A stretch of DNA of 23,050 nucleotides, from the IMG/VR virus record IMGVR_UViG_3300014325_000045, positions 1-23,050 of that record, one strand, 5' to 3'. Source of the stretch: a virus. Shown piece by piece: positions 7,993 through 14,450 of the stretch (positions are counted from its first letter, which is position 1; each line of letters opens with the position of its first letter). A program made the position numbers and the translations under genes. A model generated the notes under the pieces. That model saw only the letters and a list, made by a program, of their open reading frames with translations, was not told the origin of the DNA and did no database searches.

Positions 7993-10848
7993 CTAGCCGA
8001 CGGTGGACACGGTCGTGGCGGCCTCGGCCGCGGAGGCTCTTGCGGATCCCACGTCGGCGCCGGTGAGGATGGTCGCGGCACCCAGCGTGCCGGTCGCGGC
8101 TGCGGGGCCCTGGTCGGCGCCGGTTCCTGAGCCGGTGCCGTCCACACCCCAGCGGGGGGTGTAGATGCTGGTGGCCGGCGCGTTCAGGGCCAGCCGTCCG
8201 ACTCCGGTCTGTAGCCGGATGTCGATACCGGTGACGACCGGTCCGGGCAGGACGGCGAGGCCCGCCCGCCCAGCGGCGACGGCGCGTTTGAGGTCGAGGC
8301 CGGTCGTGGCGGTGACGAGCAGCACCCGCGTGGTCTGCGGGGCCACCTTGCGACCGGTGGCCGCTGCCCGCAGCGGAATTGCGGTGGTGCCGGACTGGGC
8401 CCGGGCGGCCTGTGTGGTCTCGACGCCGACAGTGGTGAGGACCACCGTGGCGGTGGCCGTGGCGGTCGCCCGTTTCGTCGCCGCGCCGGTGGGGCGTGGG
8501 GTGACCAGTGCGCGGCCGGCACACCCGATGCTCTTCCGTGCCGCCGCGGCGGCGCTGACGGCAACAGCGCTGGCGCCTGTGCGGGACACCGCCTTGCGGG
8601 CGGCCGCGGTGCCGGCGACGGCGATGGTGCAGGTACCGGTCTGCTGCCGGGCGGTGCCGCTGGTTTCCGCGCCGCCGCTGGTCAGTGCGGCCCGGGCGGT
8701 GCCGGCCTGCGGCGCCGCCTTCGCGGCCGTCGCAGCCGTTCGCAGCGCCACCTCGGCTGTGCCGGTACGGGATACCAGCTTCGCCGCCGCCGCAGCTGTG
8801 CGCGTTGCGAGTTCCGCCGCGCCGGCCTGGCCGTGCGCCGCGAGACCAGCCGTGCGCAGCGCGACCTCGGCGCGGCCCGTTGTCGGCGCGGTTTTCGTCG
8901 CGCGGCCCGTGGCCGTCACGGCGAGGGTGGTGGTGCCGGCCTGCGACACCACCTTGACGGCCGTCGCTGCGGCGCGCAGCACCGCCTCGGCCGTGCCGGT
9001 CTGGCCGTGTGCAGCCAATGCGGCCGGGCGGAGTGCGGCCTGGGCGCGGCCGGCCACGGATGCGGTCTTCGCTGCCCGGCCCGCGGCGGCCGCCGCGACG
9101 GTGGTGGTGCCGGTCTGCTGCCTGGCCGCGGCGGTCGTCTCGGTGCCGGTGGCGGCCAGCGCCAGCCGCCCCACGCCGGCCTGCGGCGCCGCCTTGACCG
9201 CGGTGGCGTCCGCACGCACGCACAGCTGCGCTGTGGTTGCCGCGGTCGCCGTCTTGCGGGCCGATCCGGACCCGACGGCCGCGAGAGTGCAGGCCCCCGT
9301 CTGGGCGGCCGATTTGACCGCGGACCCGGCCGCGGTCAACCCCAGGGGGGTTGACCCGGTCTCGGCGGACCCGCCACTGACTGCGGCGGGCAGGATCTCG
9401 ATGTACGCCCAGTTCGCCTCGGTCGACGTGCCGGGCAGGTGGAACCGCAGCAGGTTGGACTGGCTGGAGACGTCATCCGGCACCAGCCGTTTGATCATTC
9501 CCCAGCCGATTTGACCGGCGATGGTGCCCAGGCTGGACGCGGCGGCCTGATAGCAGCCCTGACCGGCCTTGGCCGTCCCGACGACCGTCCAGTCGCACAT
9601 CACCGCGAAGCCCTGGCCGAGGGTGGCGGATGCGGTGTACGTCTGGTCGAGCATCGACACGGACGCCGAGCCCGCCTTGCCGTGGGCACCGACCGGGGTC
9701 GAGGAGTCCTGGTTGGTGACCACCAGCACCTGGAGGGCGGCCTGCCGCGTCGGCGACGCGGCATTGTTGTTGACCGTGACACTCATCGGTGCGCCGGTGA
9801 CGACCGGGGCCGTCCAGATGGCGGCCTGCCCGTTGCGCCCCGCCGCGTCTGCCCGGGACTGCCAGTCGCGCAGGGTGTAGGTGAGCGGCACACCGAGGCT
9901 GTCGGTGATCGTGGGTGTGGACGGGTTCACGCCGGCGCCGCTGTTGCCGGCCCACAGCACCAGCAGCATCGACCCGGACGGTGGGCGGAACGTGCTGGTC
10001 GCGGTGCCGGTTGCCGTGCCCGCAATGTTCAGGGCCACCTCGGGCGAGGTCTCACTGATCCGCAGGCCGGTGTCCGTCGGCGCCGCATCGGCCGTCCCCG
10101 ACCAGGGGCTCCACACCCCGTTCGGGGAGATCCCGTCCCCGGGTGGGTGAGACCACACAAACGGTGGCGGGTCCTTCTCCGGCGGGTCACCCACCAGCGG
10201 GACCAGCTCCACGTACACCCAGTTCAGAGACACGCTGGAGCTGGGCAGGTTGCTGATGAGGGTGGTGGTGGCGCCGTTGGTGCCGTCCGCCGCGGTGCGC
10301 CGCGGGAACGCGTACGAGATCTGCCCGGAGATGCTGCCGGCCGGGTCCTCGGTGCATCCGGTGCCGGCGGTCTGGGTGCCGGTGGTGTCCCAGTCGCAGA
10401 TCGCCATGAAGCCCTGCGAACTGTCCGCGGTGGCGGTGTAGGACTGCGACACCGTGGTCGTGGAGAAGCCGTTGCCACCGGACCCACCGGTGCCGACGAG
10501 GGCGTTGGTGACCACCCAGACGCGCAGCGCCCCATGGGTGGCGGCGGTGGAGTTGTTGGTGACGCTCACCGTCATCGACGCGCCGACGGTGACGGCGGCC
10601 GTCCACATGGCGGCCTGGCCGTCGGGGTGGCCGATCGGGTCGTCCTCCGCGCTGCGGTGGTCGACCAGGATGTAGCTGAGGTGGGCGCCGAGGTTGTCGG
10701 TGACCGTGGGCATCGGCGGAAGCTCGCCGGTGCCGGAGTTACCCGCCCAGCCGACCACTAGGACAGAGTTGTCCGGTGGGGTGAACGGCGCCGTGGTCGC
10801 GGTCGGGTTGCCGGTGACCAGTGAGGGAGATGAGGCGTCGATGTTCAC
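7993..10848 (-). CDS. Large repetitive virion protein: duplicated beta domains plus Ala/Thr-rich repeats
   Basis: 951 aa, GTG start at 10848, GGGAGGG about 10 bases upstream. Residues about 1-215 and 250-485 are two copies of one beta-sandwich-like domain. Both share the patterns PP-x-S-x-LVLWAGNSG/VVGWAGNSG, TDNLG/TDSLG, GQAA-W-TA, VVTN, QGF-CDW and a C-terminal NW-Y-E segment. Residues about 492-890 are about 19 degenerate repeats of 18-22 residues with a core like K-x-x-x-Q-TGT-x-x-x-AL-R-x-A-G; longer ETT-AARQQTGT variants recur at intervals. The last 60 residues are Gly/Ala/Thr-rich (TPRWGVDGTGSGTG). It may be a head or neck fibre, tail fibre or adhesin-like decoration with a repetitive shaft; no enzyme motif is visible. 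Its position upstream of the tail terminator is unusual for a tail fibre. Confidence 0.85.
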   Translation of the reverse strand: MNIDASSPSLVTGNPTATTAPFTPPDNSVLVVGWAGNSGTGELPPMPTVTDNLGAHLSYILVDHRSAEDDPIGHPDGQAAMWTAAVTVGASMTVSVTNNSTAATHGALRVWVVTNALVGTGGSGGNGFSTTTVSQSYTATADSSQGFMAICDWDTTGTQTAGTGCTEDPAGSISGQISYAFPRRTAADGTNGATTTLISNLPSSSVSLNWVYVELVPLVGDPPEKDPPPFVWSHPPGDGISPNGVWSPWSGTADAAPTDTGLRISETSPEVALNIAGTATGTATSTFRPPSGSMLLVLWAGNSGAGVNPSTPTITDSLGVPLTYTLRDWQSRADAAGRNGQAAIWTAPVVTGAPMSVTVNNNAASPTRQAALQVLVVTNQDSSTPVGAHGKAGSASVSMLDQTYTASATLGQGFAVMCDWTVVGTAKAGQGCYQAAASSLGTIAGQIGWGMIKRLVPDDVSSQSNLLRFHLPGTSTEANWAYIEILPAAVSGGSAETGSTPLGLTAAGSAVKSAAQTGACTLAAVGSGSARKTATAATTAQLCVRADATAVKAAPQAGVGRLALAATGTETTAAARQQTGTTTVAAAAAGRAAKTASVAGRAQAALRPAALAAHGQTGTAEAVLRAAATAVKVVSQAGTTTLAVTATGRATKTAPTTGRAEVALRTAGLAAHGQAGAAELATRTAAAAAKLVSRTGTAEVALRTAATAAKAAPQAGTARAALTSGGAETSGTARQQTGTCTIAVAGTAAARKAVSRTGASAVAVSAAAAARKSIGCAGRALVTPRPTGAATKRATATATATVVLTTVGVETTQAARAQSGTTAIPLRAAATGRKVAPQTTRVLLVTATTGLDLKRAVAAGRAGLAVLPGPVVTGIDIRLQTGVGRLALNAPATSIYTPRWGVDGTGSGTGADQGPAAATGTLGAATILTGADVGSARASAAEAATTVSTVG

Positions 10849-11214: not shown

Positions 11215-11754
11215 CTAGGACCAGATACGCACGGACAGGTCGTTGCAGGTGACGGTGTTCAGCGTGCTGGGCGTGCCCCACTGGGCGCCGACCGTGATCG
11301 TTTTGACGATCGTCGTATCGATCGTCACCGTTCTCGCCGCCGCAGTGGTGGGCAGCGCGAAGTCGCTGTACGCGGTCAGCGAGGTGGCGAAATGGCAGTG
11401 GCCGGTGCCGACGATCTGGCCGGACGTGCCGGGCAGGCGGACCCGGCCGTGGTAGGTCAGAATCCACGGCACGGCCGTGACGCTGGCCGTGGTGGTGATC
11501 GCGCCGGTTGTTGCCAGGGCGACACCTGCTACTCCGCCGTAGTAGAAGCCCAGCAGCAGGGTGGGCGGGCCGGTGGTGGTCGAGAACTGCCCCCACGCCT
11601 TCAGTTCGATCTCCACGCCCTGTTCCAGGGTGTACGCGGGCAACTGCTTCTGCGGCAGCGTGGAGATGTCGGTGAGGGTCGTGGTGTTGGCCAGCGCCGC
11701 GCCGTCGGTGATGTGGAGCGGCGGCAGGACGGTGGGCCAGTACTGGCGTGCCAT
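11215..11754 (-). CDS. Beta-rich structural protein (179 aa)
   Basis: 179 aa from ATG at 11754. Longer upstream extension of this frame has no support: it overlaps the 51-aa gene, which has its own good ribosome binding site. The N-terminus (MARQYWPTVLPPLHITDG, then TTTLTDISTLPQKQL) is followed by a jelly-roll-like beta domain (VEIELKAWGQFSTT, PPTLLLGFYYGGVAG, GQIVGTGHCHFATS, VTIDTTIVKTITV) of the kind found in phage capsid or tail decoration proteins. Its first 38 residues match the N-terminus of the upstream 51-aa ORF in pattern, so the two genes are related by duplication. Function is inferred as structural only. Confidence 0.8.
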   Translation of the reverse strand: MARQYWPTVLPPLHITDGAALANTTTLTDISTLPQKQLPAYTLEQGVEIELKAWGQFSTTTGPPTLLLGFYYGGVAGVALATTGAITTTASVTAVPWILTYHGRVRLPGTSGQIVGTGHCHFATSLTAYSDFALPTTAAARTVTIDTTIVKTITVGAQWGTPSTLNTVTCNDLSVRIWS

Positions 11755-11765
11755 GTCACACCGTC

Positions 11766-11921
11766 CTAGATCGCGCTGGCGTCGAGCGCCAGGGCGCCGA
11801 TCGCCGCGAACTGCTTCTGCGGTGCGCGGCTGACATCCGTGAGGGTGACGCTCGTGTTGTAGCTGGCGCCGCTGGCCACGTGCAGGGGCGGCTGTGGGGC
11901 GGCCCACCATTGCGCTGGCAT
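11766..11921 (-). CDS. 51-aa chimeric ORF: N-terminus of a 179-aa-type gene joined to the shared C-terminal tail
   Basis: ATG start at 11921 with a good AAGGAG ribosome binding site five bases upstream; stop TAG at 11768-11766. The first 38 residues (MPAQWWAAPQPPLHVASG, then VTLTDVSRAPQKQF) align with the start of the downstream 179-aa protein (MARQYWPTVLPPLHITDG, TTLTDISTLPQKQL). The last 13 residues, AAIGALALDASAI, match the C-terminus of the 227-aa protein encoded upstream (AAIGALVLDASAI). It therefore looks like a recombinant or deletion product joining the two families. The start signal suggests it is translated; whether the product is functional is unknown. Confidence 0.65.
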   Translation of the reverse strand: MPAQWWAAPQPPLHVASGASYNTSVTLTDVSRAPQKQFAAIGALALDASAI

Positions 11922-11936
11922 TTAGACTCCTTGGCG

Positions 11937-12043
11937 TGCAGTGCGTCCGGACCATGTGGCGTAACGGCGTTGCGGCGAATGGCAGGAAGAAGTTGGGCCG
12001 TAAGCGGTCCAGACCGGTGAGCACAAGCCCCGGGCGCACTGCA
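11937..12043. repeat. 107-bp segment bounded by 14-bp inverted repeats
   Basis: TGCAGTGCGTCCGG at 11937-11950 and CCGGGCGCACTGCA at 12030-12043 are inverted copies with one mismatch. The 79 bp between them have no convincing gene. The segment fills most of the gap between the displaced gene tail at 12057-12149 and the 51-aa ORF. It could fold into a long hairpin in the transcript or be a small mobile-element relic. No clear target duplication flanks it, and it does not fit a tRNA (no T-loop). Confidence 0.5.
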
Positions 12044-12056
12044 TAGGTCCCACGGC

Positions 12057-12149
12057 TCAGATCGCGCTGGCGTCGAGGACGAGGGCGCCGATCGCCGCGG
12101 TGATCTGCCCCTGACCGGCGAAAACCTCTGGGACGACCTTTAGCAGCAC
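12057..12149 (-). pseudogene. Displaced native 3' end of the 227-aa gene (possible 30-aa ORF)
   Basis: The last 27 codons before the TGA encode exactly the same residues as the last 27 of the 227-aa protein (KVVPEVF, AGQGQIT, then AAIGALVLDASAI), but in GC-rich codons like the rest of the phage (24 of 27 codons end in G/C). The frame is open upstream only to a TAG that ends the 84-aa gene. A GTG at 12149 lies six bases after GAGGAG, so a 30-aa product is possible. The likeliest reading is a remnant of the original gene end, cut off when the HNH cassette arrived. Confidence 0.7.
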
Positions 12150-12152
12150 GGC

Positions 12153-12407
12153 CTACTCCTCATAGACGTAGACGAGTACGCCCCACGAGGACGGAGGGCT
12201 GGGCACGTAGCCCTCCACCGTCCAGCCCTCACCCTCGCCATCGACCAGCACCGGGTAGTTGGCCCGGACCGTGATCGCGGTGTTGGTGTTCACGCCAGTG
12301 ATCACGAAGCCGCCCGCCTTGATCTTCTTGCCGGACGTTGCGGTGACGGTCTTGGCAAACTCATGGTCCGTTGAGGCGTAACTGACCGACTCATATTTCC
12401 AGGCCAT
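12153..12407 (-). CDS. 84-aa beta-rich protein of unknown function
   Basis: ATG start at 12407 with GGGAG about ten bases upstream, 16 bases after the HNH stop. Sequence features: MAWKYESVSYASTDHEF, then a Thr/Val/Gly-rich beta region (KKIKAGGFVITGVNTNTAIT, VRANYPVLVDGEGEGWTVEG) and an end WGVLVYVYEE. Codon use is GC-rich like the phage, unlike the HNH gene. Its TAG stop is in frame with the displaced tail directly downstream, so the two may once have been one reading frame. It could be a cargo gene of the HNH cassette or a native structural gene whose end was altered. No family recognised. Confidence 0.65.
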   Translation of the reverse strand: MAWKYESVSYASTDHEFAKTVTATSGKKIKAGGFVITGVNTNTAITVRANYPVLVDGEGEGWTVEGYVPSPPSSWGVLVYVYEE

Positions 12408-12422
12408 CTCGGCTTCAACTCC

Positions 12423-12870
12423 CTTAAGAAGATGCGCTCAATTCGCGAGCCCGCTTCGCGCGCTGGTAGTCACGGGACCGGTTGCGGCTACAGGTGCGGC
12501 ATGAGCGCCATGAAGTCCCGACAACTATGATGTTGTCGGGAGTGAACTCGTGGCCGCGAATGCAACGGGTCTTCTCGCTATTGGCAGCCTGGAAAGTATT
12601 TCCACGGAGTAGGTTCGTCTGACAGGTGACGGGCTCTAGGTGATCCGGCCTTACGCAGCCAGGATTTCGGCACAGATGATCTAGTTGCAAGCCGGTCGGA
12701 ACCTTACCCACAATCGCTTGATAGAGCCAGCGGTGGGCTAAGACGGTCTTCCCGCCGTACTTGAATCTGCCGTAGCCGCCGCCAGTTACAGCAGCATTCC
12801 AGATCCAGCACGAGTCGGTCTTATCTACTTTCGCCAAAAGCGTTGGAGAGCAGCAGCGATCACTTAAGAA
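12423..12870. repeat. Direct repeats CTTAAGAA bracketing the HNH gene
   Basis: CTTAAGAA occurs at 12423-12430, covering the HNH stop codon, and at 12863-12870, immediately beside the stop codon of the 227-aa gene. They enclose the HNH gene and its 33-bp leader as a 440-bp unit. This could be a target duplication or microhomology from insertion, but an 8-base match could also be chance. Confidence 0.45.
12424..12837 (-). CDS. HNH homing-type endonuclease
   Basis: 137 aa, TTG start at 12837. No Shine-Dalgarno is visible before it, and its frame is continuous with the 227-aa gene across that gene's TAG, so start or expression mode is uncertain. CWIWNAAVTGGGYGRF (residues 10-25) and AHRWLY precede the HNH core QLDHLCRNPGCVRPDHLEPV (51-70; D53-H54, C56, C61, H66), and NLLRG follows. 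A C-terminal zinc-ribbon-like set (C92, H96, C113, C116) precedes a basic tail (SRNRSRDYQRAKRAREL). This is the HNH_3 type of small phage homing endonuclease. The gene is visibly more AT-rich than its neighbours, a sign of recent transfer, and is bracketed by 8-bp direct repeats. Confidence 0.93.
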   Translation of the reverse strand: MAKVDKTDSCWIWNAAVTGGGYGRFKYGGKTVLAHRWLYQAIVGKVPTGLQLDHLCRNPGCVRPDHLEPVTCQTNLLRGNTFQAANSEKTRCIRGHEFTPDNIIVVGTSWRSCRTCSRNRSRDYQRAKRARELSASS

Positions 12871-13554
12871 CTATATCGCAGATGCATCCAGAACGAGCGC
12901 GCCGATAGCGGCCGTAATTTGGCCTTGGCCGGCGAATACTTCCGGCACCACTTTTTCAAAATATAGCTCGCCCTGAGTGGTTACCAGGTCGACAGCGGCG
13001 CCGCCGGAGGTGAGCGCGAGCTGGAAGGTGTCGGTTGCGGAGCCGACGACGAAATAGCAGCCGCCCTCGGTGACGCCACCGGGGATGGTCTCGCCGACGA
13101 CGTTGAAGAGGATCACCCGGTCGGTGTTGACGAGCCCGTGTGCGTTCGACGTGATCGTGTTCGCGGTCAGGTCGGCGGCGTCGACGGTCCCGAACCCCTT
13201 CTTCGGCGTCGCGCCGCCGAACACGGAGTAGCCGCGGAAGTTGTTCGTGTTGCCCGAGCTGGCGTTCCACAGCGTGAAGAAGCCGTACGTTCCGGCCGGC
13301 ACGTCGAACGTCAGCGCACCGGTGTTGGAGACCGAGCCGGAGGCCGGGGTGCCCCAGGTCACCGCGATCCGGGCGTAGGCCGGCGACCCACCGGTCGCCT
13401 CGGTCGCCGCGGCGTTCGTACCCGTGCCGGGGGTGGTGTCCGTGGGTGGGGCGGTGGTCAGGGTGTTGATCCCGACGTGGGTGATGATGCCGGCGATCCC
13501 GCCACCGGTGCCGGACTTCAGGGCCTCGTTCTGGGCAATCGCGTTGAAGGGCAC
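12871..13554 (-). CDS. Structural (fibre/decoration-type) protein with recoded 3' end
   Basis: 227 aa, GTG start at 13554 with an AGGGGAAG ribosome binding site. Residues 1-100 (MPFNAIAQNEALKSGTGGGI, then ARIAVTWGTPASGSVSNTGA) and a beta domain (AGTYGFFTLWNASSG) are typical of small phage tail/fibre proteins. Residues about 125-195 match the common phage motif of HGL-N-D-RV-F and GVTEGGCYFVVGSATDTFQL, followed by GGAAVDL. The body is GC-rich, but from about 12985 the DNA becomes AT-richer (TATATTTTGAAAAA) and the last 27 codons use codons different from a second copy of the same peptide at 12060-12140. The recoded end joins the HNH gene directly, suggesting that both arrived together. The role is structural by inference. 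Confidence 0.85.
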   Translation of the reverse strand: MPFNAIAQNEALKSGTGGGIAGIITHVGINTLTTAPPTDTTPGTGTNAAATEATGGSPAYARIAVTWGTPASGSVSNTGALTFDVPAGTYGFFTLWNASSGNTNNFRGYSVFGGATPKKGFGTVDAADLTANTITSNAHGLVNTDRVILFNVVGETIPGGVTEGGCYFVVGSATDTFQLALTSGGAAVDLVTTQGELYFEKVVPEVFAGQGQITAAIGALVLDASAI

Positions 13555-13580
13555 GGACTTCCCCTACTTTCCTGCGTGGT

Positions 13581-14450
13581 TCACGCGACGACCGGGCGGC
13601 GGTCCCGCCGGTAGCGGTGGTAGACGGCGTCGATCTCCTGGTAGCCGGTGTGGTCTTTGTCCGCGACGGCCATGACGGTGGCGTGCAGGGTGCCGGCCTC
13701 GTTGCTGTAGGTGGCCAGCCGGTCGGGGATGCCGGAGCGGGGCTCGTTGAGCAGGTGCCGCAGGTGGCTCATCCCGGCGCCCGCGACCCGGCCGGGGGGC
13801 CGGTCGAGGCCGTGTTCGTACTCGACGACGATGTTCGACCCGCCGGCCGGCCAGATCGACCCGGTGGGCAGGGTGAGCATCCCCGACTCGGACAGGCCGA
13901 CCGCGGCGACGGTGGGGGTGGACCAGGCGACCCCGGACACCGTGACGGAGCGGAGCGCGCGCAGCCAGGGCCAGCGCACGCCGATACGGTCGCCGCCGTT
14001 GCCGGACAAGGTTTCCCGCCAGTACCGCGGGACGAACGCCTGGCGGCAGATGCGCTCGCAGTCGTCCTCGACCTCGATACGTCTGGCCACGATTGCCGAG
14101 GTCGGATAGGTCGTCGTGTTGGCCAGTGACGGGTCACTGGCCCGTGCCTCGGCAATGCCGAAGTGGAAGCCGCCGACGATCTCGACCCGGTCGGTCAGGG
14201 TGACGATGCCGCCGCCGAGGGTGCCGGTCCAGGCGACATCAAGCCAGTCGAGGTTCGTCTGGCTTGGCAGGACGAATGAGTAGGTGCCGGTGGCGCCGTG
14301 TGTGGCTGCGCCCGAGGTCACCACGGTCCCGTCTGCCGCCCGCGTGACGGCCACGGTTACGGCTCCGCCTGCGTCGGTTGGTGTCTCGTCGACGTAGAAG
14401 ACCCGGGTCAGGTTTGCTGCTGCGGTGCGGACGACCCGGATCAGGGACAC
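13581..14450 (-). CDS. Head-tail connector with N-terminal beta domain
   Basis: 289 aa. GTG start at 14450 with GGAG upstream, overlapping the upstream glycosyltransferase by ten bases; the longer open frame is antisense noise within that gene. Residues 1-95 form an Ig-like beta domain (VRTAAANLTRVFYVDETPTD, then ATGTYSFVLPSQTNLDWLDV). Residues about 120-289 resemble gp6/adaptor-type connectors: SAIVARRIEVEDDCERICRQ, FVPRYWRETLSG, WPWLRALRSVTVSGV, then EYEHGLDRPPGRVAGAGMSH and a C-terminal YHRYRRDRRPVVA. Such proteins bind beneath the portal and start the neck. The extra Ig-like N-terminus is not part of the minimal adaptor and may be exposed. Confidence 0.8.
   Translation of the reverse strand: MSLIRVVRTAAANLTRVFYVDETPTDAGGAVTVAVTRAADGTVVTSGAATHGATGTYSFVLPSQTNLDWLDVAWTGTLGGGIVTLTDRVEIVGGFHFGIAEARASDPSLANTTTYPTSAIVARRIEVEDDCERICRQAFVPRYWRETLSGNGGDRIGVRWPWLRALRSVTVSGVAWSTPTVAAVGLSESGMLTLPTGSIWPAGGSNIVVEYEHGLDRPPGRVAGAGMSHLRHLLNEPRSGIPDRLATYSNEAGTLHATVMAVADKDHTGYQEIDAVYHRYRRDRRPVVA

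Follow-up and report, generated by a model that had tools for sequence, protein, structure and literature searches.

An HNH endonuclease gene in a phage contig lies between a codon-divergent and the native copy of the 3′ end of its target gene

The window analyzed here is the whole of a 23,050-nucleotide stretch of viral DNA (positions 1 to 23,050 of IMG/VR record IMGVR_UViG_3300014325_000045). Within it, an HNH endonuclease gene lies between two copies of the 3′ end of a gene for a 227-aa protein, with an additional ORF separating the HNH gene from the distal copy (Table 1). The 227-aa protein weakly matches a phage head-protein family, and no homologue was found when it was searched against INPHARED phages. 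The HNH frame starts (TTG at 12837) 33 nt past the stop codon of the target gene, and its product contains an intact HNH domain in which the motif residues are invariant (alignment A1). Elsewhere in the window, positions 7993–10848 encode a predicted 951-aa protein with degenerate Ala/Thr-rich repeats.

Table 1. Features at the HNH locus (window coordinates).
Feature	Position	Strand	Evidence or remark
Whole 227-aa gene	12871–13554	minus	
Target gene body, resident copy (227-aa protein)	12957–13554	minus	phrog_240 (E 3e-7); relative L003
Recoded, foreign 3′ end completing the target gene, including TAG stop	12871–12967	minus	Codon comparison with distal copy, L003 and L005
HNH endonuclease gene, 137 aa from TTG	12424–12837	minus	Open frame reaches 12870; Pfam HNH_3 (E 2.9e-12), phrog_826 (E 6.5e-49)
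84-aa ORF between HNH gene and remnant	12153–12407	minus	Absent from L003–L005 at the same site
Native 3′ end of the target gene, displaced (remnant)	12057–12146	minus	TGA stop; at most a 30-aa GTG ORF
Paralogue fragment (N-terminal part of the next gene's paralogue) and third partial gene end	11766–11921	minus	Outside the cassette

The two ends encode the same peptide in different codons. The terminal 27 residues (K-V-V-P...A-S-A-I), encoded at 12874–12954 and again at 12060–12140 on the minus strand, are identical in all 27 positions; 6 of the 27 codons are the same and 21 differ, and the stop codons are TAG in the proximal and TGA in the distal copy. At the nucleotide level the ends share 60/86 positions (70%), and the longest exact run in common is 8 nt. 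Codons ending in G or C number 15/27 in the proximal and 24/27 in the distal copy, and GC content is 0.57 in both the recoded end and the HNH gene, compared to 0.68 in the body of the target gene and 0.69 in its distal end copy. The AT-rich codons of the recoded end begin at CTA TAT TTT GAA AAA, possibly up to ~8 codons earlier, leaving the left border of this patch uncertain by about that distance. The peptide identity, the counts of differing and G/C-ending codons, and the 33-base spacing to the start of the HNH gene reproduce the values given in the preliminary description of this locus.

We identified three viral contigs (L003, L004, and L005) that encode the target gene without an HNH gene at the same site. 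As the preliminary description had anticipated for intact relatives, the gene in these contigs runs straight into the native-codon tail, and in L003 and L004 it leads directly into the next gene (MARQYWPT...). The window is 93% identical to L003 over 2047 nt that include the target gene and 89% identical in the region of the distal remnant. Across the terminal 27 codons, the distal copy has 20/26 codons in common with L003 and 18/26 with L005, whereas the patch has 8/26 in common with each, the level expected from random synonymous choice. From this difference in codon sharing, we conclude that the distal copy is the native end, now displaced, and that the patch is foreign, in keeping with the earlier proposal that the native end was left behind. 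We found neither a cassette-free relative with the recoded codons at its gene end nor an intact related gene ending independently in the distal tail, the sequence patterns that had been named as speaking against that proposal.

Neither a group I intron nor an intein accounts for the arrangement. A group I intron was rejected because an Rfam search of window positions 11700–13700 returned no intron at E ≤ 1 and the host gene is complete without splicing; five other cases, described below, likewise yielded no intron at the gathering threshold. A weak Rfam match to HIV-1_SD, far below its gathering score, was judged to be due to chance. An intein was rejected because the host ORF terminates (TAG, 12871–12873) ahead of the HNH gene. 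The 84-aa ORF (..GGFVITGVNTN..GWTVEG..VLVYVYEE) has no relatives in the viral contigs or phage records searched and is probably cargo of the insert.

Beyond the distal copy, a paralogue fragment (MPAQWW...RAPQKQ) is fused to a third, incomplete copy of the gene end (AAIGALALDASAI; 11766–11807). From position 11808 downward the window is 99% identical to L003, compared to only 93% on the target-gene side, and the junction of the third copy coincides with the onset of this higher identity. Because the 99% identity begins at 11808 and L003 contains only one gene end in the corresponding region, the third copy is best read, from these alignments, as the product of an independent event outside the HNH cassette, an unequal recombination with an L003-like phage. 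Ordinary recombination thus also occurs at this locus. It does not account for the HNH insert and the foreign end that belongs to it.

HNH genes paired with recoded ends recur in other phages, at genes unrelated to this one, as the preliminary description had suggested checking. We collected relatives of the HNH gene and asked, for 170 non-redundant loci of this one HNH family, whether a peptide encoded before the HNH gene is also encoded after it, using composition-adjusted tblastn (E ≤ 0.01) and, as a control, flanks swapped between different loci; short or decayed ends are missed by this test. Raw-score comparisons without composition correction had been swamped by GC-rich noise and were replaced. 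Duplicates in a locus's own flanks were detected at 14/170 loci, whereas swapped flanks gave 4/2550, corresponding to 0.27 expected among 170 loci (Fisher p 2e-14). In a second control, in which positions were shifted within the same contigs, duplications were found at ~9/595 non-HNH positions compared to 9/91 at HNH genes (p 1.5e-4). About a dozen of the 14 positives hold up on reading by eye. The 14 positives lie dispersed on the HNH tree, where 14 changes are needed to account for them. In about 90% of the HNH relatives no end duplication was detectable, with the proviso that very short or decayed ones would escape detection, and additional HNH loci sampled from bacterial genomes added no new case.

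Both ends of genes are affected. The 3′ end is replaced in L081, L037, L148, L114, and L116, and in L081, L037, and L116 the HNH frame enters the remnant and uses the remnant's frame up to its stop. The 5′ end is replaced in L051, L033/L010, L076, L089, and L155; in L033/L010, L076, and L089 the start of the remnant is in frame with the HNH gene. L022 is of an antisense 3′ type, in which the target gene runs antisense to the HNH gene. The targets include a RusA-like gene (named from reading of the translations), and when HNH-free sites were sought for L051 and L081, the matches obtained were only to those loci themselves. In L148 (2600–3450), the gene with the replaced 3′ end appears to be another HNH gene, so that one cassette is nested in the end of another. 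L016 and L175 were judged doubtful, and L227/L235 were rejected as tandem HNH paralogues; L227, from a bacterial genome, has two tandem HNH genes, each beside a similar short Cys-rich segment (LCxCGCG..). L167 was counted only as possible, since the DNA past the remnant appears to continue the terminase gene and relatives differ there; in L167 (2880–4000), an apparent terminase gene contains an HNH gene together with a further ORF and a copy of a gene end, and seems to continue past them as a separate frame.

The clearest case is in the complete genome of a cultured virus, Gordonia phage Malisha, which emerged from a screen of 18 HNH loci in phage records; the other 17 contained no convincing case. 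In Malisha, the HNH gene is inserted at codon 23/24 of lysin B. Gene 29 starts with MRVVKLRGAGESLGGRNMLSSIAGEDL, the start of lysin B, and continues as the HNH protein, whereas gene 30 (lysin B) starts with MTRVYKLRGAGEPLDGRNMLSSIPGHEV and then proceeds as in relatives. The product of gene 29 (L189:1213–1872), annotated as an HNH endonuclease, takes its N-terminal 27 residues from lysin B. Compared to the HNH-free phage Spooky, the remnant is the same in 24/24 comparable codons, whereas the restored start has 5/17 codons in common; past codon 23/24, the Malisha gene is native-like again (20/27 codons). Duplication stops at the insertion codon, and the sequence on either side matches HNH-free phages; the HNH gene is absent from this site in the HNH-free Gordonia relatives. 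Although the lysin B start occurs in 88 phage records, the full interrupted region occurs only in Malisha, and a search for a donor of its patch gave no candidate, the best match having 75.8% nucleotide identity.

We compared codons between restored and remnant copies in 14 cases (L167 and L155 included), comprising 174 positions with the same amino acid and a choice of codon. The copies agreed at 56/174 positions, compared to 54–58 expected under random choice; a deficit below random, looked for in these 14 cases as a sign of active avoidance, was not found. For the lysin B stretch, native sequences have 192/278 codons in common among themselves and 31/102 with the restored copy; for the stretch of the window gene, the corresponding values are 53/77 for natives and 22/79 for the patch. 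Native homologues therefore share ~69% of codons and patches ~30%, even at equal protein identity, in comparisons that are not independent of one another. With ties set aside, 12 of 13 cases had a lower GC3 in the restored copy than in the remnant (sign test p 0.003), which agrees with the higher AT content of the HNH gene. Thus, synonymous sites in the patch are saturated, and its composition is shifted toward AT, as is that of the HNH gene. Because the divergence equals random synonymous choice, a divergent donor would explain the codon differences as well as selected recoding would.

Homing endonucleases depend on conserved targets, yet their insertion would disrupt a coding gene unless an intron or intein is involved. 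The phage loci suggest a simple natural answer, in which the severed end is carried along in different codons. For the window, we consider it probable (roughly 0.7) that an end-restoring mobile HNH cassette occupies the locus, free-standing and equipped with a substitute for the end that it severs. From this arrangement we infer a course of events in which a free-standing gene for a homing-type HNH endonuclease would have inserted into the 227-aa gene ~30 codons before the stop, bringing an in-frame, protein-identical, codon-different 3′ end that completes the host gene and displaces the native end downstream. During co-infection, the enzyme would cut HNH-free alleles at a target site near the gene end, and repair would copy the donor patch and the HNH gene by way of homology in the gene body, with the far side joined at the break. 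The patched allele would no longer be a target, and the runs shared by patch and remnant would be too short for recombination to delete the cassette. In the mirror form, which occurs at 5′ ends, the displaced start is fused to or lies ahead of the HNH frame, and a new start is supplied after it. The earlier proposal of a homing cassette with a synonymous patch is partly supported, by the HNH-free relatives, the distinction between native and foreign ends, and the recurrence; its suggestion that codons were selected to differ gains no such support, agreement being that of random choice. We give even odds to a broader claim, that these loci represent a recurrent class of natural phage home-and-rescue elements at the 3′ or 5′ ends of conserved genes, whose codon-randomized substitute would confer immunity to the enzyme and prevent recombining-out, and which would constitute a third way for homing endonucleases into a coding target besides introns and inteins.

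Several results count against the cassette reading, namely the large majority of relatives without a duplication, the 17 negative cultured-phage loci, the codon agreement that does not fall below random, and the 84-aa ORF within the insert. A weaker form of this reading, in which the HNH enzyme cuts without any adaptation for rescue, would have breaks repaired one-sidedly from a divergent donor, with duplicated ends as a by-product and survival of those events that leave the gene intact. We rate it a serious contender at somewhat short of even odds; it overlaps with the cassette reading, and the two estimates are not exclusive. It would account for saturation without active codon avoidance, for the scatter over the HNH tree, and for the minority frequency of 14/170. 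On its own it does not predict that duplication should stop at the insertion codon, the pattern seen in Malisha, and is otherwise hard to tell from the end-restoring cassette by sequence alone.

Ordinary mosaic recombination seems unlikely to us. Here, a divergent phage with an HNH gene beside its own copy of the 227-aa gene would have contributed both by unequal exchange that left two gene ends, making the HNH gene a passenger and the codon differences a matter of species divergence. An event of this type probably did occur in the window, given that an L003-like phage supplied the third gene end and a right arm with 99% identity. Codon differences at the level of random choice also agree with this reading, and an AT-rich patch resembling the HNH gene is what a single donor would give. 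However, mosaic exchange does not fit the enrichment of end duplications at HNH genes over both shifted positions and swapped flanks, the Malisha duplication that stops at the insertion codon between flanks matching HNH-free phages, or a patch whose divergence far exceeds that of every homologue sampled at the same protein identity (31/102 versus 192/278 codons shared). A chimera of metagenome assembly is very improbable, even though the window is an IMG/VR contig fragment: a k-mer join does not explain the pair of ends because their longest exact match is 8 nt, and the same architecture occurs in many unrelated contigs and in the complete Malisha genome, where an assembly error is not a reasonable explanation.

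The closest described parallels to the end-restoring cassette are the mobile ORFs (mORFs) of fungal mitochondria, which supply genes with a foreign C-terminus and include Allomyces macrogynus atp6; Glomus atp6, atp9, cox2, and nad3; Rhizopus atp9; and Mortierella cox2 (PMC3630166). In these elements, too, an endonuclease ORF accompanies an in-frame substitute 3′ end, with the native end downstream; for atp6, the inserted end has 91% amino-acid but 63.5% nucleotide identity, and the native end matches relatives (PMC3630166). The mORFs differ in encoding LAGLIDADG or GIY-YIG enzymes, in residing in organelles, and in affecting, as described, 3′ ends only (PMC3630166), whereas the phage loci have HNH_3 enzymes in dsDNA phages, also involve 5′ ends and antisense targets, and have HNH frames that sometimes borrow the start or stop of the host gene. 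The window element works like a fungal mORF and is not a member of that group, being an HNH_3 enzyme in a phage contig. The preliminary description's remark that such cassettes are not a standard described class therefore stands for phages, as far as we found, and does not stand generally, as mitochondrial mORFs had already been described (PMC3630166).

Among phage elements, the free-standing seg and mob endonucleases of T4-like phages resemble the loci studied here in lacking an intron or intein, in being present or absent among related phages, and in adjoining conserved genes; they differ in being intergenic or gene-splitting (mobE in Aeh1 nrdA, mobA in T4 gene 60), and the sections covered of the review describing them contain no mention of gene-end duplication or replacement (PMC2988022). 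HNH homing endonucleases of actinobacteriophages and lactococcal skunaviruses are likewise mobile among related phages, and marker exclusion has been shown for the latter (PMC12724721); the covered portions of these mycobacterial and lactococcal phage papers yielded no end duplication or replacement (PMC3029335, PMC12724721). More broadly, no phage example of end replacement was found in a search of largely open-access literature. The HomeR home-and-rescue drive follows a similar logic, placing a nuclease gene within a needed gene together with a re-coded version of the severed 3′ end of PolG2 (PMC7968924). HomeR is an engineered Cas9/gRNA drive in flies (PMC7968924); the likeness is an analogy of design with no kinship. 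Bringing the severed end in other codons, as the phage loci suggest, is how engineers design recoded-rescue gene drives.

End-restoring insertions would also explain scattered short duplicates of gene ends in phages, sudden patches of synonymous divergence at gene ends, and annotated phage HNH proteins with odd fusions at the N or C terminus, such as Malisha gp29. Malisha and its HNH-free relatives share one laboratory host, so the question is directly testable. Annotated HNH proteins with odd termini may serve as a quick marker for insertions of this kind.
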